From Aequorivita xiaoshiensis (GTDB lineage Bacteria; Bacteroidota; Bacteroidia; Flavobacteriales; Flavobacteriaceae): a DNA stretch of 64,000 bases. Below, in pieces: positions 17,243 through 35,422 of the stretch; positions within the stretch are counted from its first letter, which is position 1; each line of letters starts with the position of its first letter. The notes under the pieces are model-generated. The model did not search any database and had not been told where the DNA came from. It saw only the letters and a program-made list of their open reading frames with translations. Made by a program: the position numbers and the translations under genes. The stretch lies in assembly GCF_022008395.1 (NCBI RefSeq), contig NZ_JAIRBB010000013.1, positions 1-64,000 on the forward strand, in the 5' to 3' direction.

Positions 17243-17274
17243 TGGTCTATTATTTAAGTTACATTGTTTTAAAA

Positions 17275-17850: not shown

Positions 17851-17871
17851 CCTGCTTCTCAGTTATTTTAA

Positions 17872-17900
17872 CCCTTGCAGAACGATTAGTCCTGCAAGGG
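17872..17900 (-). other. Hairpin between cytochrome c and fasciclin genes
   Basis: CCCTTGCAG (17872-17880) and CTGCAAGGG (17892-17900) form a 9-bp perfect stem with an 11-nt loop. No U-run follows on the minus strand, so it is more likely an mRNA processing or stability element than a terminator. Confidence 0.6.
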
Positions 17901-17922
17901 AAATTTGGTTAGTTAAAAATTT

Positions 17923-18426
17923 TTATAGGGTTCTAAAATACTCTAGTATTTGCCTTGCTTCTTCTTCTGTTAAGCTTTGATTTGCCATTGGCGAACCATT
18001 GAATTCTTGTAATAAAGCTTTTGCTAGTGGATCGTTTTTAACCATTCCTTCCGGGTCGAGTATCATATTCATTACCCATTCTGGAGTACGTCGCTCCAAA
18101 ATTCCCGTTGGAGCTGGACCGATAAACTTTTTGTCAACTTTATGACAAGCCATACATTTTGATTTAAATAACTCTAAACCTTTGGCAGCCATTGCATCGT
18201 CAACTTCAGCAGAAAGATCAACGTTTTTAATAGGACCTACCCCTTTATTAGTAAGGTCGATAGTCTCGGAAGGCTTAACAGTTGAAGCTGGTGTTTCTTT
18301 TGGAGTTTCCGTTGGAGCTGGTTTTTGCCCAATTTGAATTCCTTCTTTCTTTTTCTCTTCTTTTCCACCGCAACTTACTAAGAGTAAAATTACGAGTGCA
18401 GCCATCGATTTAATTATGTTTTTCAT
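17923..18426 (-). CDS. Monohaem cytochrome c lipoprotein, first gene of the nos operon
   Basis: The start is ATG 18426, giving a 167-residue lipoprotein with lipidated Cys19 (LLLVSC). An upstream frame start at 18453 adds nine residues before the signal. A flexible Pro/Thr/Lys-rich linker (about residues 30-55) is followed by one haem-binding CMACH (residues 91-95) and a likely distal ligand Met147 in NGSPMAN. It is a class I-type cytochrome and the likely electron donor to NosZ. The divergent upstream region holds three FNR-like dyads. Confidence 0.9.
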   Translation of the reverse strand: MKNIIKSMAALVILLLVSCGGKEEKKKEGIQIGQKPAPTETPKETPASTVKPSETIDLTNKGVGPIKNVDLSAEVDDAMAAKGLELFKSKCMACHKVDKKFIGPAPTGILERRTPEWVMNMILDPEGMVKNDPLAKALLQEFNGSPMANQSLTEEEARQILEYFRTL

Positions 18427-18480
18427 AGTTGTTAGAATTAAATTATAGAACAAATGTATTTTATAATGGAAGCTTGTAAA

Positions 18481-18494
18481 ATGATATTTATCAT
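18481..18494. promoter_or_regulatory. FNR-like dyad ATGAT-ATTT-ATCAT
   Basis: This perfect palindrome has the half-site and 4-bp spacing of the FNR box (TTGAT-N4-ATCAA) with the outer base changed. It is centred about 61 bp upstream of the cytochrome c start codon. It is one of seven similar dyads between 18 and 37 kb. Confidence 0.65.
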
Positions 18495-18639: not shown

Positions 18640-19467
18640 ATGAAAAATATACTCTTACCTACAGACTTTTCTAAAAATTCAAAAAATGCAATCGAATATT
18701 CATTGAAGCTTTTTGAAGGAGAAACTGTTACATTTCACATTTTGAATTCACAAAAACCAACAGGATATATGACTGCAGATGTTTTATATGGCGCTGCAGG
18801 AGATTCCGTTTATGATGGGATTTTAAACGACAATAAAAAGGAACTTGAAAAGTTAATTCGATACTGTGAAACGCAATCTGAAGGTGAAAACTTCACATTT
18901 GTCCCGAAAATTGATTTCGACAATATAGTTGATGCTGTAAATCAAGCAGTAAGTTTAAATAATATTGAACTTATTATCATGGGCACAAATGGAGCAACTG
19001 GAGCTGAAGAAGTTGTATTTGGAAGTAATACATTAAAACTAATTAGAAAAGCAAACTGTCCAGTTTTAGCAATTCCTGAAGGATATGTCTATAATAAAAT
19101 TGAATCCGTTTTACTGTCTGTAAATTCCCAGTATGAACTTAAAACTGATGGTTTAGCAGTAGTTTTAGATATAATTCGAAAACACGATGCAACTTTAAAA
19201 ATATTGAATATAGAAGAAAACAATGTAGAAGTTGATCCACCAAATGGTAATAATTTCGATCAATTGAAAGATATAAATATAGAGCGTTTTTGTATTAGGA
19301 AGATTCCTTCTGCTGTTGCAATTGATGCCTTTACACAATTAATTCCTGTTCAACTTCACGCTATGTTTGTAGAAAGAAAGAGTTTGTTAGACCGTTTTAT
19401 ATATGGCTCAGAAACTTCCAAAATCAGCTATAGCTCTAAGGTGCCTCTGTTGATATTTAGAAAATGA
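18640..19467 (+). CDS. Tandem universal stress protein (UspA family)
   Basis: The 275-residue protein consists of two Usp domains. The first (about residues 1-143) starts KNILLPTDFSKNSKNAIEYS and has the ATP-binding pattern Gx2Gx9GS in MGTNGATGAEEVVFGSN. The second half keeps the fold but has lost the glycine motif. It should be a cytoplasmic nucleotide-binding stress protein. It is divergent from the nos operon, and its promoter region contains an FNR-like dyad, which suggests shared low-oxygen control. It is the only one of the seven stress proteins in the window on the + strand. Confidence 0.9.
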   Translation: MKNILLPTDFSKNSKNAIEYSLKLFEGETVTFHILNSQKPTGYMTADVLYGAAGDSVYDGILNDNKKELEKLIRYCETQSEGENFTFVPKIDFDNIVDAVNQAVSLNNIELIIMGTNGATGAEEVVFGSNTLKLIRKANCPVLAIPEGYVYNKIESVLLSVNSQYELKTDGLAVVLDIIRKHDATLKILNIEENNVEVDPPNGNNFDQLKDINIERFCIRKIPSAVAIDAFTQLIPVQLHAMFVERKSLLDRFIYGSETSKISYSSKVPLLIFRK

Positions 19468-19478: not shown

Positions 19479-20111
19479 TTACCTTAGAACTAGCAAGTTG
19501 TTCTTCTTAAGTGCTTGCATCAAAGTATTTACATAGTCTCGAATAGAAGTAGCTGCAGTAGGAGGATTTACTATATCTATTTTTCCTCTCCATATTAAAT
19601 CGTTGTTCCTACCTGGGCAAAGGCAAAACAAAGATGTTTCTGTATTATAAACTGGATAATCTTCAATGTGGTCATTTCCATAAACTACCTTATTTTCATT
19701 GTAGTAATCATTAAATGACTGAAAAGATCTTTTAAGGTTTCTGTAAGATTGCGCCATAGTTACCTTGTTTTCCTGTCCTACTATTTTTGAAAAAAGTACT
19801 GCATCGAAACTTTCGTTTAATAATTGCTTTTTTAGAGCTTCTAAATTCTCTTCAGATTGATCAATCTCGTTCACATTACTTTTAAAGTAATCTACACTTT
19901 TAATGGCGATTATATTTTTATCCTTTAAAGCCTTTACAAGACTGTATTCAAATTGGCGTTGCAACCCACCATCTGGAGTTAACCCCACTACCAATACTTT
20001 CTGAGCTTGAAAGTTCGGGCTTTCCTTATTAATGTATTCGTCTACCAAGCGACTACTCGAACAACCAGCAATCAGAATTACTAAAACGAAAAGCAATACT
20101 AAGTTTTTCAT
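19479..20111 (-). CDS. Lipoprotein of unknown function
   Basis: The 210-residue protein has a lipoprotein signal ending LIAGC (Cys17). The mature part starts with an alternating strand/helix pattern (KVLVVGLTPDGGLQRQFEYSLVKAL) that resembles proteins in which a small lipoprotein domain senses or scaffolds at the outer membrane. I do not recognise the family with certainty. It is convergent with the stress-protein gene at 18640 (11 bp gap) and divergent from 20314, sharing an upstream region with an FNR-like dyad. Confidence 0.7.
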   Translation of the reverse strand: MKNLVLLFVLVILIAGCSSSRLVDEYINKESPNFQAQKVLVVGLTPDGGLQRQFEYSLVKALKDKNIIAIKSVDYFKSNVNEIDQSEENLEALKKQLLNESFDAVLFSKIVGQENKVTMAQSYRNLKRSFQSFNDYYNENKVVYGNDHIEDYPVYNTETSLFCLCPGRNNDLIWRGKIDIVNPPTAATSIRDYVNTLMQALKKNNLLVLR

Positions 20112-20232: not shown

Positions 20233-20246
20233 ATGATTATAATCAT
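20233..20246. promoter_or_regulatory. FNR-like dyad ATGAT-TATA-ATCAT
   Basis: This perfect dyad (extended as TATGATTATAATCATA at 20232-20247) lies about 74 bp upstream of the start codon at 20314 and about 128 bp upstream of the divergent gene starting at 20111. Confidence 0.65.
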
Positions 20247-20313: not shown

Positions 20314-20823
20314 ATGAAAAAAACAATTTTATCATTAGCCATCATTTTAGCTTTTTTAGTGAGCTGTAACGAAACAAAAACAAAAGATGTAACCACTAGT
20401 ATTGAAGAAATGCACGAGCACGATACTTCCAATTCAAATGCTACCCACGAAGAAGTAGCTGCCGAAATGCATGCTATAAATAATGCATGGGTAGATGAAA
20501 TAAAACTAGACAATGGAGATAAATGGGAAGCAAATATTGAAACTACTGAAGGAGTAAATAAAATGTTAGATATGCTTAAGTCTACTGAAACTAAAACCAC
20601 TGAGGGCTACCACGCTTTAGCTTCAAATTTAAATGAAGTAAAAAACTTTGTTGTTAAGGAATGTACTATGGAAGGACCATCTCACGATAATTTACACGTT
20701 TTCTTACATCCACTTATCGAGAAAATCGAGGCGTTAGGAAAAGTATCAACTGTAGCCGAAGGCGCACAAATCAAAAAAAGTATTAAGGAAAATCTAGATG
20801 GATATTTTAACTATTTTGAATAG
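20314..20823 (+). CDS. Histidine/methionine-rich helical lipoprotein
   Basis: The 169-residue protein has a lipoprotein signal (LVSC, Cys18). The mature part is predicted all-helical and unusually rich in possible soft-metal ligands: EEMHEHD, HEEVAAEMHA, and a conserved-looking KECTMEGPSHDNLHVFLHPL segment. A periplasmic metal-binding role, for example copper handling for the nearby N2O reductase, is an inference from ligands and location. I do not recognise the family. An FNR-like dyad lies upstream. The 299-bp gap after it has no visible gene. Confidence 0.75.
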   Translation: MKKTILSLAIILAFLVSCNETKTKDVTTSIEEMHEHDTSNSNATHEEVAAEMHAINNAWVDEIKLDNGDKWEANIETTEGVNKMLDMLKSTETKTTEGYHALASNLNEVKNFVVKECTMEGPSHDNLHVFLHPLIEKIEALGKVSTVAEGAQIKKSIKENLDGYFNYFE

Positions 20824-21122: not shown

Positions 21123-21965
21123 ATGGGGGAAATAAATATTAAAATAGAAAAATTCAACGGCGACATTGAAGAATTTAAAGTCGAAAAATTAAAAAATTCA
21201 CTCAGAAGAAGTAAGGCTTCTGAAAACGAAATAGATCAGGTAGTTAATAAGATCATGCCTACGCTTTACGACGGAATGAAGTCTAAAGAAATTTACAAAA
21301 CAGCGTATTCTATACTAAAAAAACTCAATCGCGTATCAGCTTCTAAATACAGCCTAAAACGGGCTATTTTAGATTTAGGTCCTACAGGATTCCCTTTTGA
21401 AAGTTTAATTGGCGCCGTTCTTAAGCACCATGGTTATACAACACGGGTTGGAGTTACTTTACAAGGGGAATGTATAACACACGAAGTTGATGTTCTAGCC
21501 GAAAAAGATGGTAATGCTTACACTGTAGAATGTAAATTTCATGCAGATCCTAGGGCTGTAAGTAATGTAAAAGTGCCGCTATATATTAATTCTCGATTTT
21601 TAGATATTCAAAGGCAATGGAATAAAGATTCTGAGAAAAAATCTCATTTAAAACAAGGATGGTTAGTTACTAACACACGCTTTTCGAAAGACGCCATTGA
21701 TTATTCCGAATGTGTTGGATTGCATTTAATGAGTTGGGATTATCCTGATAACAATGGAATTAAACACAATATTGATAAATATACCCTCTACCCTATTACC
21801 ACGCTAACAACTTTGACAAAGAAGGAAAAACATCTTCTTATCGAAAAAAATGTTATTCTAACCAAGGAATTATACGAGTCTTCTTTTTTACTTGAAGAAA
21901 TAGGACTTTCCCCAATACGACGAAAAAGGGTTTTAAATGAAATAAAAAAGCTGTGTAATCTTTAA
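21123..21965 (+). CDS. ATP-cone domain fused to an Mrr-type restriction endonuclease fold, copy 1
   Basis: The 280-residue protein begins with an ATP-cone (about residues 5-92), the nucleotide-sensing module of ribonucleotide reductase and NrdR. This is followed by a PD-(D/E)xK nuclease fold (about 93-220), with the catalytic set Asp123, Glu136 and Lys138 in HEVDVLAEKDG and TVECKFH. A C-terminal helical region ends GLSPIRRKRVLNEIKKLC. All key residues are intact, so a nucleotide-gated nuclease is plausible. The paralogue at 24082 is about half identical. A terminator hairpin overlaps the end of the gene, so it is probably a single-gene unit. Confidence 0.85.
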   Translation: MGEINIKIEKFNGDIEEFKVEKLKNSLRRSKASENEIDQVVNKIMPTLYDGMKSKEIYKTAYSILKKLNRVSASKYSLKRAILDLGPTGFPFESLIGAVLKHHGYTTRVGVTLQGECITHEVDVLAEKDGNAYTVECKFHADPRAVSNVKVPLYINSRFLDIQRQWNKDSEKKSHLKQGWLVTNTRFSKDAIDYSECVGLHLMSWDYPDNNGIKHNIDKYTLYPITTLTTLTKKEKHLLIEKNVILTKELYESSFLLEEIGLSPIRRKRVLNEIKKLCNL

Positions 21966-21989
21966 TAAAGAAAGTTTACACAGCTTTTT
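21945..21989 (+). terminator. Terminator overlapping the end of the ATP-cone nuclease gene
   Basis: AAAAAGCTGTGTAA (21945-21958) pairs perfectly over 14 bp with TTACACAGCTTTTT (21976-21989), followed by a U-run. The left arm contains the last codons of the gene. As both arms end in A/T runs it can work in both directions and would also end the convergent thioesterase transcript. Confidence 0.85.
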
Positions 21990-22013
21990 CCATTATATAT
22001 TTTCTAATGAATA

Positions 22014-22496
22014 TTATCGATTAGAATCTATCGATATATTTTGAATTAGTTCATAAACTTCAGGCGCTCTACTATTTAGCCTAACTGGTTTCCAGCTTTT
22101 ATCCAACCACATATGCAGCGATGTTCCAGATGCCAGAAGTTCTCCTTCAGGTTCTCCCTCTATACTTTCATCTCGAGACAAAGGCGTACCTGCTTTTCCC
22201 AGTCGTCTTGCTTCATAATAGAATTCTAATTTAACTGCAGATTGACTCTTTATCTTTGTAAATACCCCGATAGCCTCATCGTAAAGTGCGGGTTTATGAT
22301 ATTTAACTTGAACATCTAAAACAGGCAGCATTAACCCCATACTTTCCATTTTGCTGTAAGGAAGCCCGTTGGAACGCATCATTTCTGTACGACCAATTTC
22401 AAACCAAGTAACGTAATTGGCGTGATGCACTACTCCCATTTGGTCTGTTTGCTTATAGTGTACTCTCAAATTGTGCTTGTGCCAGAATTCTTTCAT
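22014..22496 (-). CDS. Acyl-CoA thioesterase, YbgC/FadM hot-dog family
   Basis: The 160-residue protein has the YbgC signature near its N-terminus, TDQMGVVHHANYVTWFE, in which the Asp is the catalytic residue. A single hot-dog fold is expected, with an insert of charged residues (about 105-125) compared with the usual 130-140 residues. It should hydrolyse short or medium acyl-CoA in the cytoplasm. It has no operon partner and is convergent with the ATP-cone nuclease gene. Confidence 0.9.
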   Translation of the reverse strand: MKEFWHKHNLRVHYKQTDQMGVVHHANYVTWFEIGRTEMMRSNGLPYSKMESMGLMLPVLDVQVKYHKPALYDEAIGVFTKIKSQSAVKLEFYYEARRLGKAGTPLSRDESIEGEPEGELLASGTSLHMWLDKSWKPVRLNSRAPEVYELIQNISIDSNR

Positions 22497-22708
22497 AGTT
22501 TATCTTTAAAATAATAGCCGATAAAGGCTAGAACGTAACTAATAATTCAACTTTTTTAAAATTAGTGATGAGCTTTTTCAAGGCTACAACAAAATTAGAA
22601 ATTTAAAAAGCTAATAACCATCACATTTTGAAAATAGATTTGAGGATGCAGAATAGAACTAAAAGGTTTCTTACATCCAATCAAATCACTTCAAAATAAT
22701 TAAATTAT

Positions 22709-24079
22709 CTACACTAAGATTTCCTTAACATCAAGTAGCTTAGGAATTGAAACCTTCCAACCATAAGTATCTTGAAGTTTTAGGCGAAGAACATCTTGTG
22801 CTGTGGGCTCTCCGTGAATTAAAAATGTATCCTCTGGTATATTTTTAATTTCACTCGTCCAATTTAGAAGTCCTTGTTGATCTGCATGGGCAGAAAGACT
22901 TTCAATATGGTGTATCTCTGCCTTCACTGGGTGATATTTTCCAAAGAATTTTAATTCATGAGCTCCTTCTAATAGCTGTCGTCCACGAGTACCTTCAGCT
23001 TGGTAACCAACTAGCAATACGGAAGTATTTGTTTTATCAATCATTTGTTTTAGATACGTCAATACTCTCCCGCCCGTAACCATTCCACTTCCAGCAATAA
23101 TTACCTTGGGTTGTAGGTTATCTATTGTTTCCCAAGTTTCTTTATAGGATGTAATTATATTCATCCTTCTATTCATGGCATTAAAATCTTTCATTGGTAT
23201 TTTGTGCCAATCTGGAAAATTCTGAAATACGGACAATACATTATTTCCCATTGGACTATCAATAAATATTGGAATGTTTGGAATTCGGTTTTCATTGTAC
23301 AATTTCCAAAGCAAAAACATTAAAGTCTGTAGCCGTTCTACAGCGAATGATGGAATTATAAGATTCCCCCTATTGTTAATCGTTTTGTTGATGAGTTCTA
23401 CCAATTTATCTGAAACACTTTCTTGCGGATGAAGTTTATTTCCATAGGTGCTTTCAATAAATAAATAGTCGGCCCATTCTGGTTTTTCGGGTGGAGAGAG
23501 CAATAAGTCGTGTTCGCGACCAATATCTCCAGAGAAGACAAAAGTTTTACCGAAAATATCCAATTCAATAAAAGTGGCTCCAATTATATGCCCGTTATAT
23601 TTAAATCTATATTTAATGTTTTCTGAAAGTTGAATCCATTGATCTCTTTCTTCCGATTGGAAAAAACCTAAGGTAACCTCAGCTTCTTGTAAAGTGTAAA
23701 ATGGCTCGGCAGGTGTGTGTTTAGAATATCCTTCTTCATTTGCTCTTTCAGCTTCTTCCTCGTGAATTTTTGCACTGTCTAACAATATAATTTTTGCAAT
23801 TGCTAAAGTTGGTGCTGTCCCAATAATTTTGCCCCTATACCCCTTTTTTACCAATCTTGGTAAATATCCTGTATGATCTAAATGCCCATGCGTTAATAAT
23901 ACAATGTCGATTTCAGAAATAGCTATAGGTAAATCTTCCCAGTTTTTCTCCCGCATCTCCTTTACCCCTTGAAACATTCCACAGTCAATTAAAATATTTT
24001 GCTCTGGCGTTTCAATATAGAATTTTGACCCTGTTACCGTTCCAGTTGCACCTAAAAAATGAACTTTAATTTTTTGCAT
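22709..24079 (-). CDS. Beta-CASP metallo-beta-lactamase-fold nuclease
   Basis: The 456-residue protein has a metallo-beta-lactamase core with the zinc motif LTHGHLDH (about residues 62-69), GSGMVTGGR, a beta-CASP insert, a SAHADQQGLL motif and a final HGEP. This is the CPSF73/Ysh1-like RNase group that lacks extra RNA-binding domains, present in many bacteria and thought to process RNA. Its start lies 2 bp after the ATP-cone nuclease gene, so both are made from one transcript that begins in three stress-protein genes. It may be the RNA-acting arm of that module. Confidence 0.92.
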   Translation of the reverse strand: MQKIKVHFLGATGTVTGSKFYIETPEQNILIDCGMFQGVKEMREKNWEDLPIAISEIDIVLLTHGHLDHTGYLPRLVKKGYRGKIIGTAPTLAIAKIILLDSAKIHEEEAERANEEGYSKHTPAEPFYTLQEAEVTLGFFQSEERDQWIQLSENIKYRFKYNGHIIGATFIELDIFGKTFVFSGDIGREHDLLLSPPEKPEWADYLFIESTYGNKLHPQESVSDKLVELINKTINNRGNLIIPSFAVERLQTLMFLLWKLYNENRIPNIPIFIDSPMGNNVLSVFQNFPDWHKIPMKDFNAMNRRMNIITSYKETWETIDNLQPKVIIAGSGMVTGGRVLTYLKQMIDKTNTSVLLVGYQAEGTRGRQLLEGAHELKFFGKYHPVKAEIHHIESLSAHADQQGLLNWTSEIKNIPEDTFLIHGEPTAQDVLRLKLQDTYGWKVSIPKLLDVKEILV

Positions 24080-24081
24080 AA

Positions 24082-24915
24082 CTAGTTGTGTTTACACAAG
24101 ATTTTTATCTCTTCTAAAATTCGAGCTTGTCTATTTTCAGAAATTCCCAGATGGTCTAAATAAAAATCATCGTTTATTAATTGTTTGCAAAGCACTATAT
24201 CACGACTGAGCAAAAACTGTTTTTCTCGCTGGCTCAACAATGTTGAAGCAGTAATTGGGTAAAGCCCCAATCGATCTATCCGGTCTTTAATCCCGTTGTC
24301 TTTTGGGTAATCCCAACTTAACAAATAGAGTCCTGCACATTTCCCGTATTGCAAGGCATCTTTTGAAAAACGAGTATTAGTAACCACCCAACCTTGGGTT
24401 GGCTTTTCTACTTCATTTTTAACGTTATAATTGTTTAAAATATCTCGATATCGGGAATGGATATACAGTGGAATTTTCACATTACAATTTCGACCTTCAT
24501 CACTGTGAAACTTACATTCTACAACAATAATTTGGTCGTTTTTTCGTGCAACAACATCAACCTCGTGAAGGACGCATTTTCCTTGTAAAAACTGCCCAGT
24601 TTTTACATTATAGCCACTATAAAACAACAGGGCAGCTATAAATTTTTCAAAAGGAAATCCCGTTGGTCCTAATTCGTAAATTGCTTTTTTTAACTTGTAT
24701 TTTGAAGCATAGCCTTTCTTCTCTTTTTTAAGAAGAGCAAAGGCGCGATTATATATTTCTCTTGTTGAAATGCCCTGATATAACTCGTCGCGGACGTTGT
24801 TGGAAATTTCATTAACCAATGCCTCTTCTGCTCCACTTTTTCGAAGTGAAGATTTTAATTTATCGATTGAAAAATTTGTCCGTTCTCCAGAATGCTTAAT
24901 AATTTCAACATCCAT
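24082..24915 (-). CDS. ATP-cone domain fused to an Mrr-type restriction endonuclease fold, copy 2
   Basis: The 277-residue protein has an ATP-cone at about residues 2-89, a LGPTGFPFE linker shared with copy 1, and a PD-(D/E)xK domain with Asp120, Glu133 and Lys135 (HEVDVVARKND, VVECKFH). The shared TQGWVVTNTRFSKDA and SWDYP segments follow. The C-terminus ends LGISENRQARILEEIKILC. It is encoded between a stress-protein gene (16 bp upstream) and the beta-CASP nuclease (2 bp downstream). ATP-cone proteins sense ATP or dATP, so nuclease action linked to nucleotide status is an inference. Confidence 0.87.
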   Translation of the reverse strand: MDVEIIKHSGERTNFSIDKLKSSLRKSGAEEALVNEISNNVRDELYQGISTREIYNRAFALLKKEKKGYASKYKLKKAIYELGPTGFPFEKFIAALLFYSGYNVKTGQFLQGKCVLHEVDVVARKNDQIIVVECKFHSDEGRNCNVKIPLYIHSRYRDILNNYNVKNEVEKPTQGWVVTNTRFSKDALQYGKCAGLYLLSWDYPKDNGIKDRIDRLGLYPITASTLLSQREKQFLLSRDIVLCKQLINDDFYLDHLGISENRQARILEEIKILCKHN

Positions 24916-24931
24916 TATTTCTTTAATTTAA

Positions 24932-25783
24932 CTATGTTCTGGAATCGTGTAGCGCCAATATTGGCACTTTAGAATGTACACCAAGGCTTTTAACCAAAGG
25001 ATTTGTAAAAGCACTGCCAAAAAACCAATGTTTTCTGTTTACAAAAGCTATCATCCCACTTTCACGTTCATCAATAAACGTGAGCAGTTCTTCTTTAACC
25101 CCTCCACTATCAATCCAGTGATATGTAAATTCTAAGTCTTTAAAATGGTTTTCTAGTTGACTTCGGTTATTTTTTTGTCTTTCAGTGAGATTGGTTTCCT
25201 TCCCAATATGTAAAATACGAATCGGAGAATTGCCTTGTTTTGCAATTTTCACAAAGGTTTTCATCTCACTTTCGATATAGTGACTTTTAAAATTGGTTGG
25301 AAATACAATTTCATTAATATTTCTGTAGGATATATTGGAAGGAATTGCGAGAACGGCACAATCCCTTATATTTTCCATGATATTTACCGAATTTCTACCG
25401 TAGGCAACTTCTCCATCATTAGTTACACCGCGGGTTCCCATGACTATTAGATCAATATCATTTTTTTTTACTTTTTCTTCTATTAAGTCTATAAAAGATC
25501 CAAATTTGTGATCGTAGTATATTGTATGTCTAGGATTATCAGCTAACAGATTTACCTTATTTTTAAGAAAAATCATTTTCTCTGCTGAATGTCTTGCTGC
25601 AGCATCATACTCAGATGGTTCTGGTTCTGGAAATAAGAAATTTCCACGAGCGGAATGCTGTAAAAAATAAGAGTGAAAAATATAAAATGTACAATCTATA
25701 TTTTTAAAAAGCTCAAATGTGTAGACAATAGCATTAAATGCATTTCGCGAATAATCAGTAGGAATTAATATATTTTTATGCAT
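24932..25783 (-). CDS. Tandem universal stress protein
   Basis: The 283-residue protein has two Usp domains. The first nucleotide motif reads MGTRGVTNDGEVAYGRN, where the usual GS is GR, so ATP binding may be altered. The second half lacks the glycine motif and ends FGSAFTNPLVKSLGVHSKVPILALHD. It is the third gene of the transcript 27555 to 22709 and closely resembles the protein at 25825, which points to a local duplication. Confidence 0.9.
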   Translation of the reverse strand: MHKNILIPTDYSRNAFNAIVYTFELFKNIDCTFYIFHSYFLQHSARGNFLFPEPEPSEYDAAARHSAEKMIFLKNKVNLLADNPRHTIYYDHKFGSFIDLIEEKVKKNDIDLIVMGTRGVTNDGEVAYGRNSVNIMENIRDCAVLAIPSNISYRNINEIVFPTNFKSHYIESEMKTFVKIAKQGNSPIRILHIGKETNLTERQKNNRSQLENHFKDLEFTYHWIDSGGVKEELLTFIDERESGMIAFVNRKHWFFGSAFTNPLVKSLGVHSKVPILALHDSRT

Positions 25784-25824
25784 AGCTAAAAGTTTATTTG
25801 TGTATTGAACCCCACTCTAAAATT

Positions 25825-26676
25825 CTATGTTCTTACATCGTGCATTGCTAATAGTGGAACATTAGTATGCTTACCGAGTTCTTTCACCATAGGGTTTGAA
25901 AATATACTGCCAAAAAAGTTGTGTTTTTTATTTACAATTGCAATCATTTCGCTTTCTCGACTTTGAACAAAACAACTTACGCCATCTTTTAAATCTACAT
26001 CATACAATCTATGATGCGTAAACGATGCTGGATCTAAAATTTTTTCTAATAGCAATTTGTTGTCTATTTGAGGTTGTGATAAAGCCTTCCCCCTTTGCAC
26101 GTGTAAAATGCGAATTGGTGCATTTAAAAGCCGAGAAATCTCTACTAAAGTAGACAGTTCCTTTTCCTTATAATGTGTTCTAAAGCTTGTTGGAAAAACT
26201 ATTTCGTTTGGCTCCTTAAATAATACTGTAGATGGAATGGCTAGCACTGGGCAACTTCTAATTTTCTCCATCACATTAACAGCATTACTTCCTAAGATAA
26301 CAGTTTTATTATCTGTTTCACCTTGAGTTCCCATTATAACAAGTTCTATATCTTCTCTGGCAACAACAGTTTTCATTACTTCGAAAAATGGTCCAAACTC
26401 GCTAAAATATTTAAAACTGTGTTTCTCATTTTCTTCATAAAAACTCATTTGAACTTTTAATCTTTCAATATTCTTTTCAGAACGTTCTTTTACAATACTT
26501 AGGTCTTTATCTGTTGGCTGAGGACTTAATAAATTGTCTTTAGAATATCCTGATAGATAGTATGTGTTTAGAATAAAAAATTCACAATATTCGCGTCTAT
26601 ATAGTTCCATTGCATATTTAATAGCGTTAAATGCATTGCGTGAAAAATCTGTGGGTATTAATATTCTTTTCTTCAT
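25825..26676 (-). CDS. Tandem universal stress protein
   Basis: The 283-residue protein is the same length as its downstream neighbour and shares its C-terminal pattern (FGSIFSNPMVKELGKHTNVPLLAMHD). The first domain keeps a full nucleotide motif (MGTQGETDNKTVILGSN). The second domain is degenerate at that site. It lies 36 bp after one stress-protein gene and 41 bp before the next. Confidence 0.9.
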   Translation of the reverse strand: MKKRILIPTDFSRNAFNAIKYAMELYRREYCEFFILNTYYLSGYSKDNLLSPQPTDKDLSIVKERSEKNIERLKVQMSFYEENEKHSFKYFSEFGPFFEVMKTVVAREDIELVIMGTQGETDNKTVILGSNAVNVMEKIRSCPVLAIPSTVLFKEPNEIVFPTSFRTHYKEKELSTLVEISRLLNAPIRILHVQRGKALSQPQIDNKLLLEKILDPASFTHHRLYDVDLKDGVSCFVQSRESEMIAIVNKKHNFFGSIFSNPMVKELGKHTNVPLLAMHDVRT

Positions 26677-26712
26677 AATATCTGTTTATTTAAACTTTTA
26701 ATTTACAATATT

Positions 26713-27555
26713 TTATTTAATCTTTGATGGAATTACTAGAAGTGGAACATAATCGTGTTTTCCAATCCGGTTTACAACTGGCTCACGGAAAAGTTGTTTT
26801 ATAAAATTATGTTTATGATGTATGATTGTAAATAGATCTATATCCTCTTTTTCTACAATAGAATGTAAGGTATTAGAAATATTTCCCTTTTTCGGTACAA
26901 AGTGAAAATCTACATCGTATTCAGTTAAGTCTACCAAAAACTTGTTATAGTTTTCTTTTTGTGTTTTGTCAAGTTCTTTTTCCGAACCTACATTAATAAT
27001 GTGAATTTGCGAATTGAACTGTCTAACAAGCCTTGTGATTGGTTTAAATTTTGAAAAACTAAAAAACTCATTGTAATCGCTAGCAAAACCAATCTTTAAA
27101 GGAACTACAAACTTTACGTGATTGGGAACAATAAGTAAAGGACAGTTTTCTAGCGATTTTAAAACTTTTATTGTTGTACTCCCTACTAATACATCTTCTG
27201 CACTAGTTCGCCCTTTATCTCCCATCACAACAAGGCTTACTTCATCTTCCTTAGCCATTTTATTGATGGTACTCGACAAAGATTCTGGGGTTAAAATAAA
27301 TTCGTAATTATGCCTTTGCTTCGGGGTGCTTAGTTTAATTTTTTGAAGCAATTTTTTACTTTCTTCTTCAGGATTTATTTTGACGTTTTCTGTTTTAACA
27401 CTTAGCCCTGCAAGATTATTATTATTTCTACTCTGCGAACTATAGGAATGTAAAACTACTATACACAACGACTCATCACCGTAAAGTTTTGAAGCATAAT
27501 GCAATGCTGCAAATGCATTATCAGAAAAATCTGTAGGGACAATTATTTTTTTCAT
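26713..27555 (-). CDS. Tandem universal stress protein, first gene of the nuclease operon
   Basis: The 280-residue protein starts KKIIVPTDFSDNAFAALHYA and has the nucleotide motif MGDKGRTSAEDVLVGST in its first domain. It is more diverged from the other copies. It heads a five-gene run (three stress proteins, ATP-cone nuclease, beta-CASP nuclease) with gaps of 2-41 bp. The 138 bp upstream contain an inverted repeat but no FNR-like dyad, so transcription may also enter from the stress-protein gene at 27694. Confidence 0.9.
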   Translation of the reverse strand: MKKIIVPTDFSDNAFAALHYASKLYGDESLCIVVLHSYSSQSRNNNNLAGLSVKTENVKINPEEESKKLLQKIKLSTPKQRHNYEFILTPESLSSTINKMAKEDEVSLVVMGDKGRTSAEDVLVGSTTIKVLKSLENCPLLIVPNHVKFVVPLKIGFASDYNEFFSFSKFKPITRLVRQFNSQIHIINVGSEKELDKTQKENYNKFLVDLTEYDVDFHFVPKKGNISNTLHSIVEKEDIDLFTIIHHKHNFIKQLFREPVVNRIGKHDYVPLLVIPSKIK

Positions 27556-27693: not shown

Positions 27694-28539
27694 CTAACGC
27701 GGTAAGTTTTGAAGTACTAAAAATGGAATATCAATTTTTAAACCTATTTTTTCTATAGTTGACTTGTACAAGATATTTTCTAAATAAGAATGCCGTGTAT
27801 TCACCATAACTAGCATATCAATAGGGTTTTCTATAATAAATTTATTAACTGCTTTAGTTACATTCTTTTTATCCTTTTGAACAAAATCTATCTGATTTTC
27901 ACTTAAACAAGCTTCCATAAAGGCTTTATTATCATGTTGCCTTAAAGACAAGTTATTAAATTTAGATACGTACAAAAAGTTAATTTTGGAAGCAAAGCAT
28001 TTAGCTAGTGACCCTAATAGCTTTAATTCTCTTCTTTTAAAAGGAATCATAAAATCTGATGGAAACAAGATGTTTTTTGGATGAACATCGGTATAGATTT
28101 CTGGAATAGCCAAAACAGGACATTTCACGTATTTAATAACTTGAAGTGTATTACTACCAAAAGTGATATTTTTATCGTCGGTTTCCCCTTGTGTTCCCAT
28201 CACGACAATATCAGCATTTTTACTTTCCACCCATTCATTTACCGTATCCACCAATAAGCCAAATTCAGCAACTGTAAAAATTTTATGTTTTGGATTTGGT
28301 GAGTAAGCGAAAAGTTCCTTTTTCATTTTAGCTAATTTCTCTTCTACATCACTGAGTGTCTTTGCCTTTAAATTGTCAAAATCGGCATCTGGCAAATTTA
28401 TTTTTTCATTATACACTCTATCTGCAAACGCGTGTATAAGATAAATTTCAGAATGACCGTGCTTAAAAAGCTCGGCAGCATATTTAGCAGCATTCATGGA
28501 GTTATTAGAAAAATCGACAGGAATTAAAATTTTGTGCAT
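27694..28539 (-). CDS. Tandem universal stress protein
   Basis: The 281-residue protein starts HKILIPVDFSNNSMNAAKYA and its first domain has the intact motif MGTQGETDDKNITFGSN. The second domain starts PKNILFPSDFMIPFKRRE and lacks the glycine motif. It is divergent from the small membrane protein at 28683; the shared upstream region carries an FNR-like dyad and a 15-bp palindrome. Confidence 0.9.
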   Translation of the reverse strand: MHKILIPVDFSNNSMNAAKYAAELFKHGHSEIYLIHAFADRVYNEKINLPDADFDNLKAKTLSDVEEKLAKMKKELFAYSPNPKHKIFTVAEFGLLVDTVNEWVESKNADIVVMGTQGETDDKNITFGSNTLQVIKYVKCPVLAIPEIYTDVHPKNILFPSDFMIPFKRRELKLLGSLAKCFASKINFLYVSKFNNLSLRQHDNKAFMEACLSENQIDFVQKDKKNVTKAVNKFIIENPIDMLVMVNTRHSYLENILYKSTIEKIGLKIDIPFLVLQNLPR

Positions 28540-28594: not shown

Positions 28595-28608
28595 ATGATA
28601 AGTATCAG
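28595..28608. promoter_or_regulatory. FNR-like dyad ATGAT-AAGT-ATCAG
   Basis: The dyad has one outer mismatch (G instead of T). It lies about 62 bp upstream of the stress-protein start at 28539 and about 82 bp upstream of the small membrane protein at 28683. Confidence 0.55.
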
Positions 28609-28977: not shown

Positions 28978-29817
28978 CTATTCGTGAATCACTAAAAACG
29001 GAACATTTGGCTCATAACTCACTAATTTAGCCACGGGCCTTAATAACAAACGCTCTATAAAATTTAAGTTTTTAGCTACAATGGAAACCATACTTATATC
29101 CCAAGTTTCGATAAAATTTTTAAGCCCTGTTTCTAGTTCCTTATTTTCTACAAAATGAAAACTGTGTTTCTTTTCTCTAAAAGAATAGTGTAAAAAACCT
29201 TTATTGTCGGTTTGCTCGCTATTAAGTCCTAAATTATGTGTTCTTATATTAAGCACCCGAAGTGCTGAATTATGCAGTTCCAGATTATCGGAAAGTGTCG
29301 AAAATATTTTACTTCTAAATATATTGTTATAATCGGTTATAAAGGCAATATTGCTTATTTTTCTAAATCTAGCATTACCAGGTATAACCATTATTGAACA
29401 TTTAACCTTTGTAATAACTTCACAGGTATTACTTCCTAGCCTTTTTAAATTAGAAACAGACATTCCTCTGGTTCCCATTAAAATATAATCTATTTCTTTC
29501 GCAATTACCTGCTTGCGAATAGCTTCTACTAAGTTTAAGTCGTCTTCTATTGCATAGAACTTATGCTGAGCGTTTAATCTGGATGTTTTACAGGTGTTAA
29601 TTAGCGATTTAAGTTTGGAGGAAGCGTTTTGAAGTGTAGTTACATTAGCGATAGATTTTGTGAAACCATCCCCCTCTCCATTTGGTTCTTGTATTTCAAT
29701 TGAAGCTACATGAAGTAAATAAAAATTGACTGGAATATCAGCAAAGTAATCTAGCGCATAACGAATTGCATTATGCGAATTTTTAGAAAAATCTGTAGGA
29801 ATTAAAATATTTTTCAT
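28978..29817 (-). CDS. Tandem universal stress protein
   Basis: The 279-residue protein has a first Usp domain with MGTRGMSVSNLKRLGSN, an intact nucleotide motif, and a second domain without it. It is the nearest stress-protein gene to the receiver-FNR regulator and has an FNR-like dyad 50-63 bp upstream of its start codon. Confidence 0.9.
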   Translation of the reverse strand: MKNILIPTDFSKNSHNAIRYALDYFADIPVNFYLLHVASIEIQEPNGEGDGFTKSIANVTTLQNASSKLKSLINTCKTSRLNAQHKFYAIEDDLNLVEAIRKQVIAKEIDYILMGTRGMSVSNLKRLGSNTCEVITKVKCSIMVIPGNARFRKISNIAFITDYNNIFRSKIFSTLSDNLELHNSALRVLNIRTHNLGLNSEQTDNKGFLHYSFREKKHSFHFVENKELETGLKNFIETWDISMVSIVAKNLNFIERLLLRPVAKLVSYEPNVPFLVIHE

Positions 29818-29866: not shown

Positions 29867-29880
29867 ATGATAAAAATCAG
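29867..29880. promoter_or_regulatory. FNR-like dyad ATGAT-AAAA-ATCAG
   Basis: The dyad lies between the stop codon of the receiver-FNR gene (29901) and the start of the stress-protein gene (29817), so it can only serve the latter. Confidence 0.55.
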
Positions 29881-29900: not shown

Positions 29901-30959
29901 TTATTCTATAAACTTTAACCTGTCTAGGTCTACAATGTGAATATCACGCCCTTCGATTTCAATAATTCCGTTTTTCTTGAATTCAGATAGCGTTCTAATT
30001 AAACTTTCTGTTGCTATTCCTGCAGTTGCAGCTAAATCATTACGCGAAATTCGCAAGGGCGCTGAAGTGTTTTTATTCATAATTTCAGCAAATTGAATGA
30101 TAGTAGCTGCAGTTTTCTTCCTAACCGAACTATAGGCCATCCTTATAAGTTGCTGCTTTATCTCGGTTAAATTATCGCTAAGAAGATTCATTAATTCTAA
30201 AGTAACATCCTTACTTTTTATTAAAATGTCTTTTAGATAAGTTTTGGATAAACTAACCAGTTCTACATCTTCTACCGCTGTAGCAAACTCGGCATAAGGT
30301 AGATTATCTTCAAACGAGGTAAATCCTAAAAAATCGTCGGCTTTGTATAATCCAGTAATAAGCTCTTTCACATTATCGTCCATGGTATGCGTTTTTACAA
30401 CTCCTCTGGTCAATAAAAAAATGTTATTTGAGTGATCACCAGCACGATAAATAGTTTCACCTTTTTTATAATTGGCAATGGTACCCTCATCGCAAAAATA
30501 ATTTTTTAGCTGATTTAAATTCCTTGGGGCGTCCTCATCTTCAACTACATCTACATTGATGCCTGCGTTAATTGAACGCATAGATAAGATGGCAGATTTC
30601 GCCAATCTACTTTCTATAGCACTAATTAAATCCGCTTCATCAAATGGTTTAGTAAGGTAATCATCTGCTCCCATATCCATTCCTTTTCTTATTTCTTTGT
30701 GCTCGGTTTTAGCAGTAAGAAATATAAAAGGTATATGTGTGGTTTTTTCATTTGAAGCTAATGCCTCTAACACGCCGTAACCGTCAATTTCAGGCATCAT
30801 AATATCACAAACTACAATATCGGGTAATTCCTTGAAAGCTTGTTCAATCCCTAATCTGCCATTTGCCGCAGTAATTACGTTATAATCTGATAGCTCTAAA
30901 AGCTCGGCTGTATTTTCCCTTAGTGCTGTATCGTCTTCAATTAGAAGTATTTTCTTCAT
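29901..30959 (-). CDS. Response regulator: receiver domain fused to a CRP/FNR-type regulator
   Basis: The start is ATG 30959; a frame start at 31022 would overlap the kinase gene. The 352-residue protein has a receiver domain (about 1-120; phospho-acceptor Asp52, Lys104), a cyclic-nucleotide-binding-type beta-barrel (about 150-260) and a CRP/FNR helix-turn-helix (about 270-345). The recognition helix aligns without gaps to E. coli FNR, with Glu318 and Arg322 at the positions of FNR Glu209 and Arg213 but Ile321 in place of Ser212. The FNR Fe-S cysteines are absent, so oxygen is not sensed directly; the kinase encoded 1 bp upstream should provide the signal. FNR-like dyads nearby are its likely targets. 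Confidence 0.92.
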   Translation of the reverse strand: MKKILLIEDDTALRENTAELLELSDYNVITAANGRLGIEQAFKELPDIVVCDIMMPEIDGYGVLEALASNEKTTHIPFIFLTAKTEHKEIRKGMDMGADDYLTKPFDEADLISAIESRLAKSAILSMRSINAGINVDVVEDEDAPRNLNQLKNYFCDEGTIANYKKGETIYRAGDHSNNIFLLTRGVVKTHTMDDNVKELITGLYKADDFLGFTSFEDNLPYAEFATAVEDVELVSLSKTYLKDILIKSKDVTLELMNLLSDNLTEIKQQLIRMAYSSVRKKTAATIIQFAEIMNKNTSAPLRISRNDLAATAGIATESLIRTLSEFKKNGIIEIEGRDIHIVDLDRLKFIE

Positions 30960-30960
30960 A

Positions 30961-32196
30961 TTAACTTTTTGGAATTTTACTTGGGAAGGTAATAGTAAAT
31001 GCACTTCCTTTATTTTCTTCACTTTCGAAGATTATAGTACCACCTATATTGTTTAGATGACTTTTAACAATATTTAAACCAATGCCAGTTCCTTGATTCA
31101 ATAAAGCATTTTCAGCTCTAAAATATCTGTTGAAAATAAATTTCTGCTCTTTTGCAGGAATACCAATCCCTTGATCGATAATTTTTATACTCATAGCGTC
31201 CTTCTGAGGCAGAACAATTACATCGATACTTGTGTTTTCTGGGGAATATTTTATGGCGTTATTAATAAGGTTAGTTAACGATAATTCTAAAATTTTTTCG
31301 TCAAAATAAACCTGTATGCCGTCAATGTTTTTTGGGTAGTTAATTTGCTGACCTTCCTTTAAAAGCATATTAGCATTATAGATCACTTCATTAACTACTT
31401 TACTTAATGGAAAAGTACTGTACTTATAAGTTTCCCTCCCAGATTCTAGACGTTCAATAGATAAGAAGTCGTTGAGGATATTATTTAGATACTTTACTTT
31501 ATTTTGAATGGTTTTTAAGTGTTTCTCTCTTTTGTCTTGTTGGCTAGTCTCTTTGTATTTCTCTACCAATGTTGCAGACGTGAGGATTCCACTTAACGGG
31601 GTTTTAAATTCGTGTGAAACTAAGGATAAAAACTTTGTTTTAAGCTCACCTAATTCTCGTTCTTTTCTTAAAGACTCTTTAATTTTATCCTCGGCATCTT
31701 TCCTTTTTACTACTTCTTTTTCGAGTTCTATAATACTTTCTTTTAAAGCTTGTGTTCGCTTTTCAATTTTCAATTCTAATTCATTATTGAGCTCTCTAAT
31801 TTGCAACTCCTGTTGTTTTCTAACAGAAATATCTGTAACCAAAGCCATTACATATTTGCTGCCATAAACTTCAAATGGATTTAGTCCAGCTTCAACAGGA
31901 AAGGTGCTGCCATCTTTTCTTTTACCATATAAATCACGACCATGACCCATTTGTCTCGGGTCGCTATTTTCCATAAACTCATTAACCTGAACATGATGAT
32001 TACTCCTATATTCCTGAGGTATTAAAACACTAAGGTTTTTACCAATTAGTTCACCGTGTTCGTATCCAAACATTCTATCACCCGCATCATTAGAGGTTAC
32101 AATTTCATGTTTGTCGTTAACAATAACAATCCCTTCTGAAATAGCTTCAGAAAGAATTTTAAAAATGTTACCTTTTTTTTCGTCAAATACTTTCAT
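30961..32196 (-). CDS. FixL-like PAS histidine kinase
   Basis: The 411-residue protein has no membrane segment. It has a PAS domain (about 10-125), a coiled coil (about 126-185), a HisKA domain with phospho-acceptor His195 in SHEFKTP, and a HATPase domain (N box near 311-320, G1 DQGIGIP, G2 GTGIGL). The PAS domain follows the FixL pattern closely: YRSNH, NSDP, GHGR and GKRKDGSTFP. His67 aligns with the haem ligand His200 of Bradyrhizobium FixL and Arg87 with Arg220, while other FixL haem-pocket residues differ. Haem and oxygen sensing is therefore plausible but unproven. An FNR-like dyad upstream suggests autoregulation. Confidence 0.92.
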   Translation of the reverse strand: MKVFDEKKGNIFKILSEAISEGIVIVNDKHEIVTSNDAGDRMFGYEHGELIGKNLSVLIPQEYRSNHHVQVNEFMENSDPRQMGHGRDLYGKRKDGSTFPVEAGLNPFEVYGSKYVMALVTDISVRKQQELQIRELNNELELKIEKRTQALKESIIELEKEVVKRKDAEDKIKESLRKERELGELKTKFLSLVSHEFKTPLSGILTSATLVEKYKETSQQDKREKHLKTIQNKVKYLNNILNDFLSIERLESGRETYKYSTFPLSKVVNEVIYNANMLLKEGQQINYPKNIDGIQVYFDEKILELSLTNLINNAIKYSPENTSIDVIVLPQKDAMSIKIIDQGIGIPAKEQKFIFNRYFRAENALLNQGTGIGLNIVKSHLNNIGGTIIFESEENKGSAFTITFPSKIPKS

Positions 32197-32234: not shown

Positions 32235-32248
32235 CTGATTTATATCAT
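32235..32248. promoter_or_regulatory. FNR-like dyad CTGAT-TTAT-ATCAT
   Basis: The dyad has one outer mismatch and lies 39-52 bp upstream of the kinase start (32196) and 53-66 bp upstream of the divergent gene at 32301. It would let the receiver-FNR protein control its own operon. Confidence 0.55.
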
Positions 32249-33766: not shown

Positions 33767-34069
33767 ATGAAAAGTAATTTTAAAGATATCATTAATTCCG
33801 GAACACCTGTTCTTGTTGATTTCTTTGCTGATTGGTGTGGACCTTGTAAAATGTTAGCTCCTATTTTAAAACAAGTGAAAGATGAACTGGGTGATTCTGT
33901 AAAAATCGTAAAGATAGACGTTGACAAAAACCAACCACTTGCAGCACAATTTCAAGTGAAAGGTGTTCCTACCATGATTTTATTCCGTAATGGAGAGCAA
34001 AAATGGCGACAGAGTGGTGTTTTGCAAAAAGATGAATTAATTGCAATTATCAATCAGCATAAAAACTGA
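33767..34069 (+). CDS. trxA: Thioredoxin
   Basis: The 100-residue protein is a single thioredoxin fold with the active site WCGPC (residues 26-30) and a cis-proline in KGVPTMILFRNG. It should reduce cytoplasmic disulfides; a role in low-oxygen metabolism would be in keeping with its location. The stop codon overlaps the deoC start by one base (TGATGG), so both are translated together. Confidence 0.92.
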   Translation: MKSNFKDIINSGTPVLVDFFADWCGPCKMLAPILKQVKDELGDSVKIVKIDVDKNQPLAAQFQVKGVPTMILFRNGEQKWRQSGVLQKDELIAIINQHKN

Positions 34070-34740
34070 TGGAATTAAATCAATATATAGACCATACTCT
34101 TCTTAAAGCCACAGCTACAAAAGATGATATCATCAAACTTTGTAATGAAGCTAAGGAGTATAACTTTTACGCTGTTTGTGTGAATAGCTGCTATATTTCA
34201 CTGGTAAAAAACGAACTTAAGAATAGCGACGTAAAAATTGCTGTAGTTGTTGGTTTTCCTTTGGGAGCTAATTCTGCCAATTCAAAATTATTTGAAGCAG
34301 AACAAGGTGTAAAAAAAGGTGCCGATGAAATTGACATGGTGCTTAATTTAGGATTTTTAAAATCTGAAATGTTTGATGCTGTTGAAAAAGAAATTTCAGA
34401 TATAAAACAGGCAATTGGAGGTAAAATTTTAAAAGTAATTCTTGAGACTTGTTATTTATCCAATAGCGAGATAATTACCGCTTGTAAAATTTCAAAAGCA
34501 GCCGGAGCAGATTTTGTAAAAACATCCACAGGGTTTGGCACTGGCGGCGCGACCGAGGAGGCCGTGAAACTAATGGTTGAAACTGTTGGTGATACATTAA
34601 AAGTAAAAGCTTCTGGGGGCATTAGAGACGCAAAAACAGCAAAAAAATACATCGATCTAGGCGTGAGTAGAATAGGAACTTCTTCCGGAATTCGAATTGT
34701 TACATCAAGCAATACAAGTACAAATGAGCACACATATTGA
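34069..34740 (+). CDS. deoC: Deoxyribose-phosphate aldolase
   Basis: The 223-residue TIM barrel converts 2-deoxyribose-5-phosphate to glyceraldehyde-3-phosphate and acetaldehyde. It has the Schiff-base lysine in FVKTSTGFG and the phosphate loop [10 protein letters not shown]. It overlaps deoD by 17 bp. With deoD it forms a deoxynucleoside salvage pair, which fits an island that also holds putative DNA-acting nucleases. Confidence 0.95.
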
Positions 34741-35422
34741 AGCCAAAATAGGCGAAATTGCAGAATCTGTTCTTCTCCCTGGCGACCCTTTACGCGCAAA
34801 ATGGATAGCCGAAACGTATTTAAAAGACGCTAAATGCTATAACGAGGTACGCGGAATGTATGGTTATACTGGCACATATAAGGGAAAGCGTATTTCGGTG
34901 CAAGGTACAGGAATGGGAGTTCCGTCAGCCTTAATTTATTGTCACGAACTTATAAAAGACTACGGCGTTAAAAACTTACTTAGAGTAGGTTCGGCAGGTA
35001 GCTATAAAAAAGATATTAATGTTCGCGATATAGTAATTGCAATGGCAGCATCATCCAATTCTGGCATCAATAAATCACGGTTTTCAAACTCCGATTTCGC
35101 TCCTACTGCCGATTTCAATTTGTTTATGAAAGCTGTGTCTTATGCTAAAGAAAATAATATTTCTATAAAAGCTGGAAATATTCTTACAACCGATCTGTTC
35201 TACGAAGACAATGTGGAAGATTATAAAAAATGGGCTGAATACGGGGTGCTTTGCGTGGAAATGGAAACTGCAGGGCTCTATACCATTGCGGCAAAATATA
35301 ATGTAAAAGCTTTGTCTATTCTAACTATTTCAGACTCCCTAGTAACTGGTGAGACTACGACTTCTGAAGATCGAGAAGGAAGTTTTTCTAAAATGATTGA
35401 CATAGCGTTAAACACCGTTTAG
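34724..35422 (+). CDS. deoD: Purine nucleoside phosphorylase DeoD type
   Basis: The start is ATG 34724, as the family begins [21 protein letters not shown]; an earlier frame start at 34697 lies within deoC. The 232-residue enzyme splits (deoxy)nucleosides with phosphate, giving a free purine and (deoxy)ribose-1-phosphate. [17 protein letters not shown] and [10 protein letters not shown] are family motifs. It is followed by a strong bidirectional terminator. Confidence 0.95.

Follow-up and report, generated by a model that had tools for sequence, protein, structure and literature searches.

The 64,000-nucleotide stretch of the Aequorivita xiaoshiensis genome analysed here (the window) encodes two paralogous proteins in which an N-terminal ATP-cone precedes a Mrr-type PD-(D/E)xK nuclease domain. 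One of these, copy A (24082..24915, minus strand), is the conserved partner of a β-CASP RNase within the host family. The surrounding gene block looks suited to low oxygen, and we favour, at chances we put just short of even, the view that the unit serves an adenylate-gated breakdown and salvage of nucleic acid under low-oxygen or energy stress.

Both originally predicted domains are above the Pfam cut-offs in both paralogues. The Mrr_cat domain scores 26.2 bits in copy A and 30.1 in copy B (21123..21965, plus strand; assigned from Pfam and a tree), with a cut-off of 21, and the ATP-cone (PF03477) scores 30.5 and 28.6, only a few bits over its cut-off of 25.8. Copy A, assigned from Pfam, a PDB match and a structural model, continues into an AF1548-like C-terminal part, the Pfam profile for which stays below its cut-off of 23.9 in the two window copies (15.6 and 21.3). 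The catalytic triad, Asp120/Glu133/Lys135 in copy A with aligned residues in copy B, is intact in all 126 family ORFs, the window copies included, and both copies combine Mrr_cat with the Asp and Glu-x-Lys residues of Mrr-type PD-(D/E)xK nucleases. They share 48% identity. Copy B does lie on the opposite strand, but not at the 1.2 kb first given: its end lies 0.74 kb from that of the RNase gene, with a thioesterase gene (22014-22496) in between, and 2.1 kb from copy A. It has neither an adjoining RNase nor a perfect TGATNNNNATCA upstream, and in the tree phosphorylase-linked nucleases of about 50% identity do not group with it.

The RNase gene (22709..24079, minus strand) starts 2 bp past the copy A stop. 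Its product has Pfam Beta-Casp and RMMBL domains and the metal-binding motifs, whose His/Asp positions are conserved at 0.99-1.0 among 100 sequences, and matches TTHA0252 across residues 9-427 (E 1.8e-67). In sequence and motifs it resembles the TTHA0252 type; however, the subfamily of the window RNase (E <= 1e-100) occurs only alongside the nuclease in our family sample of 199 genomes. It was found in 78 of 82 nuclease-bearing genomes versus none of 117 nuclease-free ones (Fisher 4e-51), and immediately downstream of the nuclease at 82 of 97 sites. These counts are not independent because the loci are related. When the pair was searched for in other genomes, as the original prediction had proposed, a conserved unit was recovered, with the RNase at 77 of 80 named loci and universal stress proteins (USPs) at 76. 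The gap between the two genes falls between -56 and +19 bp in 68 of the 77 (longest-ORF starts); at one locus (L165) the three forward frames downstream of the nuclease gene gave no RNase. Coupling is looser outside the host family, where the RNase adjoins 10 of 28 nuclease sites. More distant β-CASP proteins (E <= 1e-20) occur in 201 of 296 genomes of the phylum and the nuclease in 49. The pair was seen in Bacteroidota and on one plasmid of Chlamydiota. Assignment of the RNase as Cas14 of type VII CRISPR was rejected (NCBIfam score 387.8, equivalog cut-off 800).

Pfam and ORF coordinates agree with the predicted position of copy A, directly before the RNase and behind three stress-protein genes. 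The latter, all PF00582 and on the minus strand (26713..27555, 25825..26676 and 24932..25783, the last adjoining copy A), open a tight USP-USP-USP-nuclease-RNase run. Two further USP genes on the same strand (27694..28539 and 28978..29817, PF00582) each have a palindromic box upstream. Across the loci, USP density is highest 0-4 kb upstream of the nuclease, and the recognisable neighbours are mainly stress and fermentation genes. Such islands also hold a second ATP-cone fusion, to a putative glucoamylase.

Beyond the USP genes lie a gene for a receiver domain joined to a CRP/FNR-type regulator (29901..31022, minus strand; receiver matches near residues 24-150 and FNR/CRP matches at 173-370) and one for a PAS-type sensor histidine kinase (30961..32196, minus strand), both named from NCBIfam matches that all fall under their cut-offs. 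The palindrome TGATNNNNATCA, which we take to resemble a CRP/FNR box, is enriched around the nuclease, with 140 occurrences at 66 loci against 5.6 expected. The window holds five, every one between island genes: at 18482..18493, flanked by a cytochrome c-like gene (17923-18453) and, on the other side, a USP-like ORF (18640-19467), both named from reading alone; at 20234..20245, between divergent genes (19479-20111 and 20314-20823); at 28596..28607 and 29868..29879, upstream of the USP genes 27694-28539 and 28978-29817; and at 32236..32247, in the gap that separates the sensor kinase gene from 32301-32705. Genome-wide, the strict form occurs 11 times (control, 1), 5 upstream of a gene and 6 within ORFs, and the loose form 69 times (control, 50). 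One strict site elsewhere in the genome precedes a P-ATPase gene, presumably of the cbb3-maturation type. The palindrome is enriched in the island but stands out less at the operon of the nuclease. Boxes precede 29 of 106 nuclease operons versus 80 of 554 others under a 200-bp joining rule (p 0.0024), 26 of 110 versus 97 of 686 under a 120-bp rule and 21 of 117 versus 139 of 958 under a 60-bp rule; among 30 newly fetched, scorable loci, none has one. For the window operon, the nearest perfect box stands before the USP gene that precedes it, and 138 bp separate this gene from the operon. No enrichment of a looser version of the box, ATGATNNNNATCAT with up to 2 mismatches, was found in the window (60 vs 61), and scans for sigma-70 sites (42, against 34.3 in shuffles) and terminator-like sequences (8, against 4.0) were uninformative.

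The ATP-cone is the master switch of deoxynucleotide synthesis, and in ribonucleotide reductases (RNRs) it works through changes of oligomeric state. In the confident AF2 model of copy A the N-terminal fold resembles the cones of NrdR (E 2.4e-3), Leeuwenhoekiella NrdB (3.7e-3) and NrdA, here placed on a nuclease; these matches span E 2.4e-3 to 1.2e-2, none of them below 1e-3, with a fold-match probability of 1.00 in most cases. A PDB profile search with the nuclease sequence returned 1y88 and five designed proteins, and no ATP-cone. Three positions that presumably contact the nucleotide are kept in the family ORFs: Lys7 in 125 of 126, Lys19 in 120 and Thr/Ser51 in all. The two lysines align with lysines in the cone of this genome's own NrdB; however, the NrdB threonine does not align with position 51, and further cone positions also vary. 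It had been proposed that the sensor responds when anoxia stops aerobic RNR. This argument is weakened because the genome encodes a class II enzyme (NrdJ, above cut-off) besides the NrdB with its ATP-cone; class III NrdD was not found in it.

The closest relative of the nuclease is AF1548 of Archaeoglobus (PDB 1Y88), which is alike in the nuclease and C-terminal parts (sequence E 3.6e-26, fold E 8.9e-15). However, the match begins at residue 22-23 of its 199-residue chain, so AF1548 leaves no room for an ATP-cone. The cyclic-oligoadenylate-gated nucleases Can2, Card1 and Cdn1 likewise join a nucleotide sensor to a PD-(D/E)xK domain (fold E 3e-4 to 1e-2), but their sensor is a CARF domain and that of copies A and B an ATP-cone; no CRISPR genes were noticed near copies A and B. 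A CARF-gated nuclease was accordingly rejected as an identity for the window proteins, in which Pfam gives no CARF. The literature search, judged mostly from search results, gave no recognisable description of an ATP-cone nuclease, and the portion of PMC11841059 used here does not mention an ATP cone.

Deoxynucleoside salvage genes are present in the island, as predicted: deoC (34069..34740, plus strand; TIGR00126, 280.7 bits, cut-off 117.3) and deoD (34697..35422, plus strand; TIGR00107, 322.1 bits, cut-off 232.25). The deoD ORF is taken from a TTG, and its real start may be further in. The salvage link is stronger in relatives, where an archaeal-type phosphorylase gene lies directly behind the RNase in 15 of 16 cases (samples of 199 and 296 genomes); in the window genome none was found at E <= 1e-60. 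The order nuclease-RNase-phosphorylase-PRPP synthetase is seen on Criblamydia and Pontibacter plasmids and at six Flavobacteriaceae loci (L203, L206-L210), the latter runs preceded by a 2-hydroxyacid dehydrogenase and a USP. On 3 of 4 proteobacterial plasmids examined, an MBL protein, a phosphorylase and PRPP synthetase form a run without an annotated ATP-cone nuclease. A similar run, Bradyrhizobium bll3115-bll3117 (MBL fold, PRPP kinase, phosphorylase family), appears in a table of microoxia genes (PMC6515984), and the low-oxygen lxa locus of Burkholderia has six USPs with a 51-kDa MBL protein, together with PFK (PMC6127331). An ATP-cone nuclease is not named for either island in the parts of these sources consulted; the main text of PMC6127331 has no occurrence of 'ATP cone', 'ribonuclease', 'thymidine phosphorylase' or 'phosphoketolase'.

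Gene content suggests how such a unit could work. Failure of oxygen or of respiratory energy would act through the PAS kinase and REC-CRP protein, or an FNR-type regulator, which would bind TGATNNNNATCA and switch on the USP operons, that of the nuclease and RNase included. The ATP-cone would then take up adenine nucleotides and set the activity of the nuclease, probably via its oligomeric state. The PD-(D/E)xK nuclease and the β-CASP RNase, encoded in adjacent frames, would cleave the cell's nucleic acid, with RNA, or RNA plus DNA, the likeliest substrate. The products may pass to phosphorylases, DeoD with DeoC in this island and the archaeal-type enzyme with PRPP synthetase in relatives, a flux whose yield of bases and sugar phosphates would feed salvage and fermentation. 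More tentatively, and with the odds against it, Bacteroidota may have re-used the ATP-cone as an energy gate on enzymes that degrade polymers, namely the nuclease and, in one group, also a glucoamylase; at low oxygen the cell would consume its own RNA and DNA by way of nuclease, β-CASP RNase, AMP/nucleoside phosphorylase and PRPP synthetase, fermenting the sugar phosphates and keeping the bases for regrowth.

Alternatively, the pair could degrade selected RNA or DNA and halt translation or replication as ATP drops, a reversible dormancy to which salvage is secondary. The many USPs of the island, the likeness of the nuclease's architecture to nucleotide-gated Can2 and Cdn1, and neighbour clusters 34 and 12 (8 and 25 of 123 sources), read from their sequences alone as hibernation-factor-like and chaperone-like, would fit such growth arrest. 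Nevertheless, no antitoxin-like partner was noticed, relatives carry the phosphorylase and PRPP synthetase genes after the RNase gene, which suggests that the products are put to use, and we consider arrest unlikely. A role in quality control, in which, during stress from reoxygenation or denitrification, the nuclease would trim nucleic acid that is damaged or stalled, while the RNase clears faulty RNA, would suit a Mrr-type domain and an adjoining nosZ (from an NCBIfam search), which suggests nitrogen-oxide metabolism; but reading of the commonest neighbour clusters recognised no repair genes, and this too seems rather improbable. Anti-phage defence by ATP/dATP sensing of phage takeover, part of the original prediction, is very improbable despite the architectural parallel with CARF nucleases: 26 of 28 genomes in the host genus carry the nuclease, the neighbourhood of stress genes recurs across loci, 50,697 phage records gave zero matches, four pattern matches in IMG/VR include no relative, and a PADLOC scan of 10 island proteins gave only weak, domain-level matches, to the RNase and to the nuclease, the best of the latter confined to a late part of the profile.

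Breakdown and salvage of nucleic acid at low oxygen, the reading preferred here, bears on how aerobes outlast anoxia without growth and at what cost. A conserved, possibly adenylate-gated pair linked in relatives to nucleotide catabolism would turn the spending of nucleic acid into a directly testable idea. If true, the role of the ATP-cone would extend past RNR control, and a further kind of nucleotide-gated nuclease would stand beside the CRISPR-linked ones.

The components claimed in the original prediction, namely two ATP-cone/Mrr proteins, a beta-CASP RNase and three universal stress proteins (USPs), are all present in the window as open frames with Pfam matches. In both nuclease copies, A (24082-24915, minus strand) and B (21123-21965, plus strand), ATP-cone and Mrr_cat exceed their Pfam cut-offs and AF1548-like_C is below cut-off. 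The copies lie 2.1 kb apart, not 1.2 kb as first given, and a thioesterase gene sits between copy B and the RNase (22709-24079, minus strand). Copy A and the RNase, on the same strand, close a USP-USP-USP-nuclease-RNase run with intergenic gaps of 36, 41, 16 and 2 bp (window ORF coordinates). The surrounding genome (3.06 Mb; genus taken as Aequorivita, Flavobacteriaceae) carries a nitrous-oxide reductase region adjoining this island (11143-18453; nosZ confirmed at 15272-17242, remaining genes by reading). Genes at 38086-41615 resemble, by reading, those of a carotenoid pathway.

The component parts and their pairing within the family are solidly established. Among 199 Flavobacteriaceae genomes (198 genera), the nuclease occurs in 82 (E <= 1e-5) and the RNase in 78 (E <= 1e-100); every one of these 78 carries the nuclease, and at that threshold the RNase is absent from all 117 genomes that lack the nuclease (Fisher 4e-51). 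The search of other genomes with scoring of neighbours, proposed earlier, places the RNase directly downstream of the nuclease at 82 of 97 family sites (one fragment row excluded) and USPs in 76 of 80 named loci, chosen as the best among 587 relatives. The RNase is directly downstream in 77 of these 80, the three misses being two contig ends and one locus, L165. In a phylum-wide sample the nuclease is found in 49/296 genomes. With the 36 best RNase matches (E <= 1.8e-137), three short cone-only rows excluded and two pieces of one gene counted as one site, the RNase adjoins the nuclease at 33/55 sites; pairing is looser outside the family (10/28), and 3/36 RNases have no neighbouring nuclease. 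Distant beta-CASP proteins are common (201/296 genomes at E <= 1e-20). Copy B groups in an RNase-less clade of four rows (FastTree, local support 99).

ORF clustering of the 80 loci recovers the nuclease in 80, the RNase in 77 and USPs in 323 copies, followed by two nameless clusters (44 and 42 loci), REC-CRP (35), PAS kinase (33), TerB-like (27), thioredoxin-like (26), Hsp20-like (24) and other proteins; names beyond the window's own searched genes were assigned by reading. USP density in these loci peaks within 0-4 kb on the upstream side of the nuclease gene, at 0.5-0.8 per kb; farther upstream (5-9 kb) it falls to 0.1-0.2, and downstream to 0-0.14. A family of ~138 aa (25 loci, including L131 9489-9905), with no Pfam match found at 0.001, neighbours the nuclease closely on its upstream side in 19/80 loci. 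An 84-aa protein lies between nuclease and RNase in L203 and L206-L209 (e.g. L209 9411-9665), with no Pfam/NCBIfam match found at the thresholds used.

At E <= 1, a sequence search of the PDB gives copy A a single relative, AF1548 (1Y88, E 3.6e-26). The likeness extends to the predicted fold: for a model built from 39 sequences (mean pLDDT 89.8, pTM 0.85), 1Y88 is the best Foldseek match (8.9e-15), followed by MspJI (1.5e-4), Cdn1 (3.2e-4) and Can2 (6.3e-4), with only eight matches below 1e-3. Likeness to the cones of ATP/dATP-bound NrdR (2.4e-3) and Leeuwenhoekiella NrdB (3.7e-3) is weaker. All 126 family ORFs, taken from 122 loci plus the window, share Asp120, Glu133 and Lys135. The cone conserves Lys7 (125/126), Lys19 (120/126) and a Thr or Ser at position 51 (126/126), all putative nucleotide contacts. 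Fold and conserved residues suggest that the nuclease may be gated by adenylates. The NrdB cone of a flavobacterium is reported (PMC5794259) to bind dATP, ATP or dADP, two molecules in each case.

In three loci (L182, 10851-12386; L189; L194) a second ATP-cone fusion, to a putative glucoamylase (one scanned member: PF10091 288.5 bits; ATP-cone 30.3, cut-off 25.8), is encoded two genes away from the nuclease. Fusions of the nuclease kind may be mentioned in an early survey of the ATP-cone domain. The third ATP-cone protein of the window genome is, by reading, NrdB. It coexists with a class II ribonucleotide reductase (contig C65:74791-76650; TIGR02504 579 bits, cut-off 400); no class III enzyme was found in this genome.

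Annotation of Pontibacter (Bacteroidota) and Criblamydia (Chlamydiota) plasmids gives an ATP-cone protein, an MBL-fold protein, a thymidine phosphorylase family protein and ribose-phosphate pyrophosphokinase in that order; the Criblamydia MBL protein shares 54% identity with the window RNase, and phosphoketolase, glucan phosphorylase and acetate kinase are also annotated there. On the C. sequanensis plasmid (L169, 7861-19202), nuclease, MBL protein, phosphorylase, PRPP kinase and fermentation genes lie together, with a shorter glucoamylase of the fusion's cluster nearby. The nuclease-RNase-phosphorylase-PRPP synthetase run recurs in six Flavobacteriaceae loci, preceded by 2-hydroxyacid dehydrogenase and USP, with glycolytic genes near some (families scanned from one example each; PFK by reading). 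The relatives' phosphorylase is of archaeal type (TIGR02645 above cut-off; AMP phosphorylase TIGR03327 below, 492.5 vs 535), rare at E <= 1e-60 (13/199 family, 3/296 phylum genomes) and immediately preceded by the RNase for 15 of these 16 genes; the sixteenth is stop-interrupted and located elsewhere. Such phosphorylases occur in 115 plasmid records, mostly Proteobacteria among the 40 listed. Of four proteobacterial plasmids opened, three encode MBL protein, phosphorylase and PRPP synthetase, and none of the three has an annotated ATP-cone protein; in the fourth, phosphorylase-PRPP synthetase occurs with USPs close by. The window RNase and the Variovorax MBL protein share 37% identity. The nuclease thus looks like a partner of a wider RNase-phosphorylase unit, in Bacteroidota, the phylum that the genome searches covered, and in one Chlamydiota plasmid. 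The archaeal-type phosphorylase was not found in the window genome at E <= 1e-60; deoC-deoD is present in the window's own island. From the relatives we infer a putative salvage role.

A scan of 917 intergenic regions for palindromes of 4 and 5 bases with gaps of 2-8 gave a single dominant family, TGATNNNNATCA (140 observed vs 5.6 expected, 66 loci), with a strict form, TGATANNTATCA (67 vs 0.8); expectations are first-order shuffles, and the loci are mutually related. By resemblance it is a putative CRP/FNR-type site, and the island's REC-CRP protein may bind it. Whole loci hold 269 boxes, 71 within ORFs and 19 without a gene start inside 350 bp; the remainder lie a median 61 bp ahead of gene starts, chiefly of USPs (89). 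The window's five (18482, 20234, 28596, 29868, 32236) each fall between island genes, compared with 1.7 expected (five reached in 3/100 shuffles), and are 5 of the genome's 69 loose sites (binomial p 0.015). The box at 18482 falls between a cytochrome c-like gene of the nitrous-oxide reductase region and a USP-like ORF. Genome-wide, the strict box has 11 sites (reversed control, 1), 6 within ORFs and 5 upstream of genes, one of these a heavy-metal P-ATPase gene, putatively of the cbb3-maturation type. At the nuclease operon itself the box evidence is weaker: 29/106 vs 80/554 other operons with 200-bp joining (p 0.0024), 26/110 vs 97/686 with 120 bp, 21/117 vs 139/958 with 60 bp, and 0/30 among scorable newly fetched loci. 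This contrast is conservative because the comparison operons come from the same islands.

Related genes appear in low-oxygen data from other bacteria. In Bradyrhizobium, bll3115 (MBL fold; 2.9/15.4), bll3116 (ribose-phosphate pyrophosphokinase; 4.4/7.7) and bll3117 (thymidine phosphorylase family; 2.1/5.1) are tabulated, with these paired values, among differentially expressed proteins and genes under microoxia (PMC6515984, in excerpt). Proteins of the Burkholderia low-oxygen-activated locus are listed as raised in late isolates: phosphofructokinase, a heat shock protein, six USPs and a metallo-beta-lactamase protein of 51 kDa (PMC6127331, in excerpt). Unlike the island described here, neither set names an ATP-cone nuclease in the excerpted text. 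A low-oxygen setting of the island is well indicated, and the nuclease is a candidate nucleotide-gated enzyme within an already known type of low-oxygen island.
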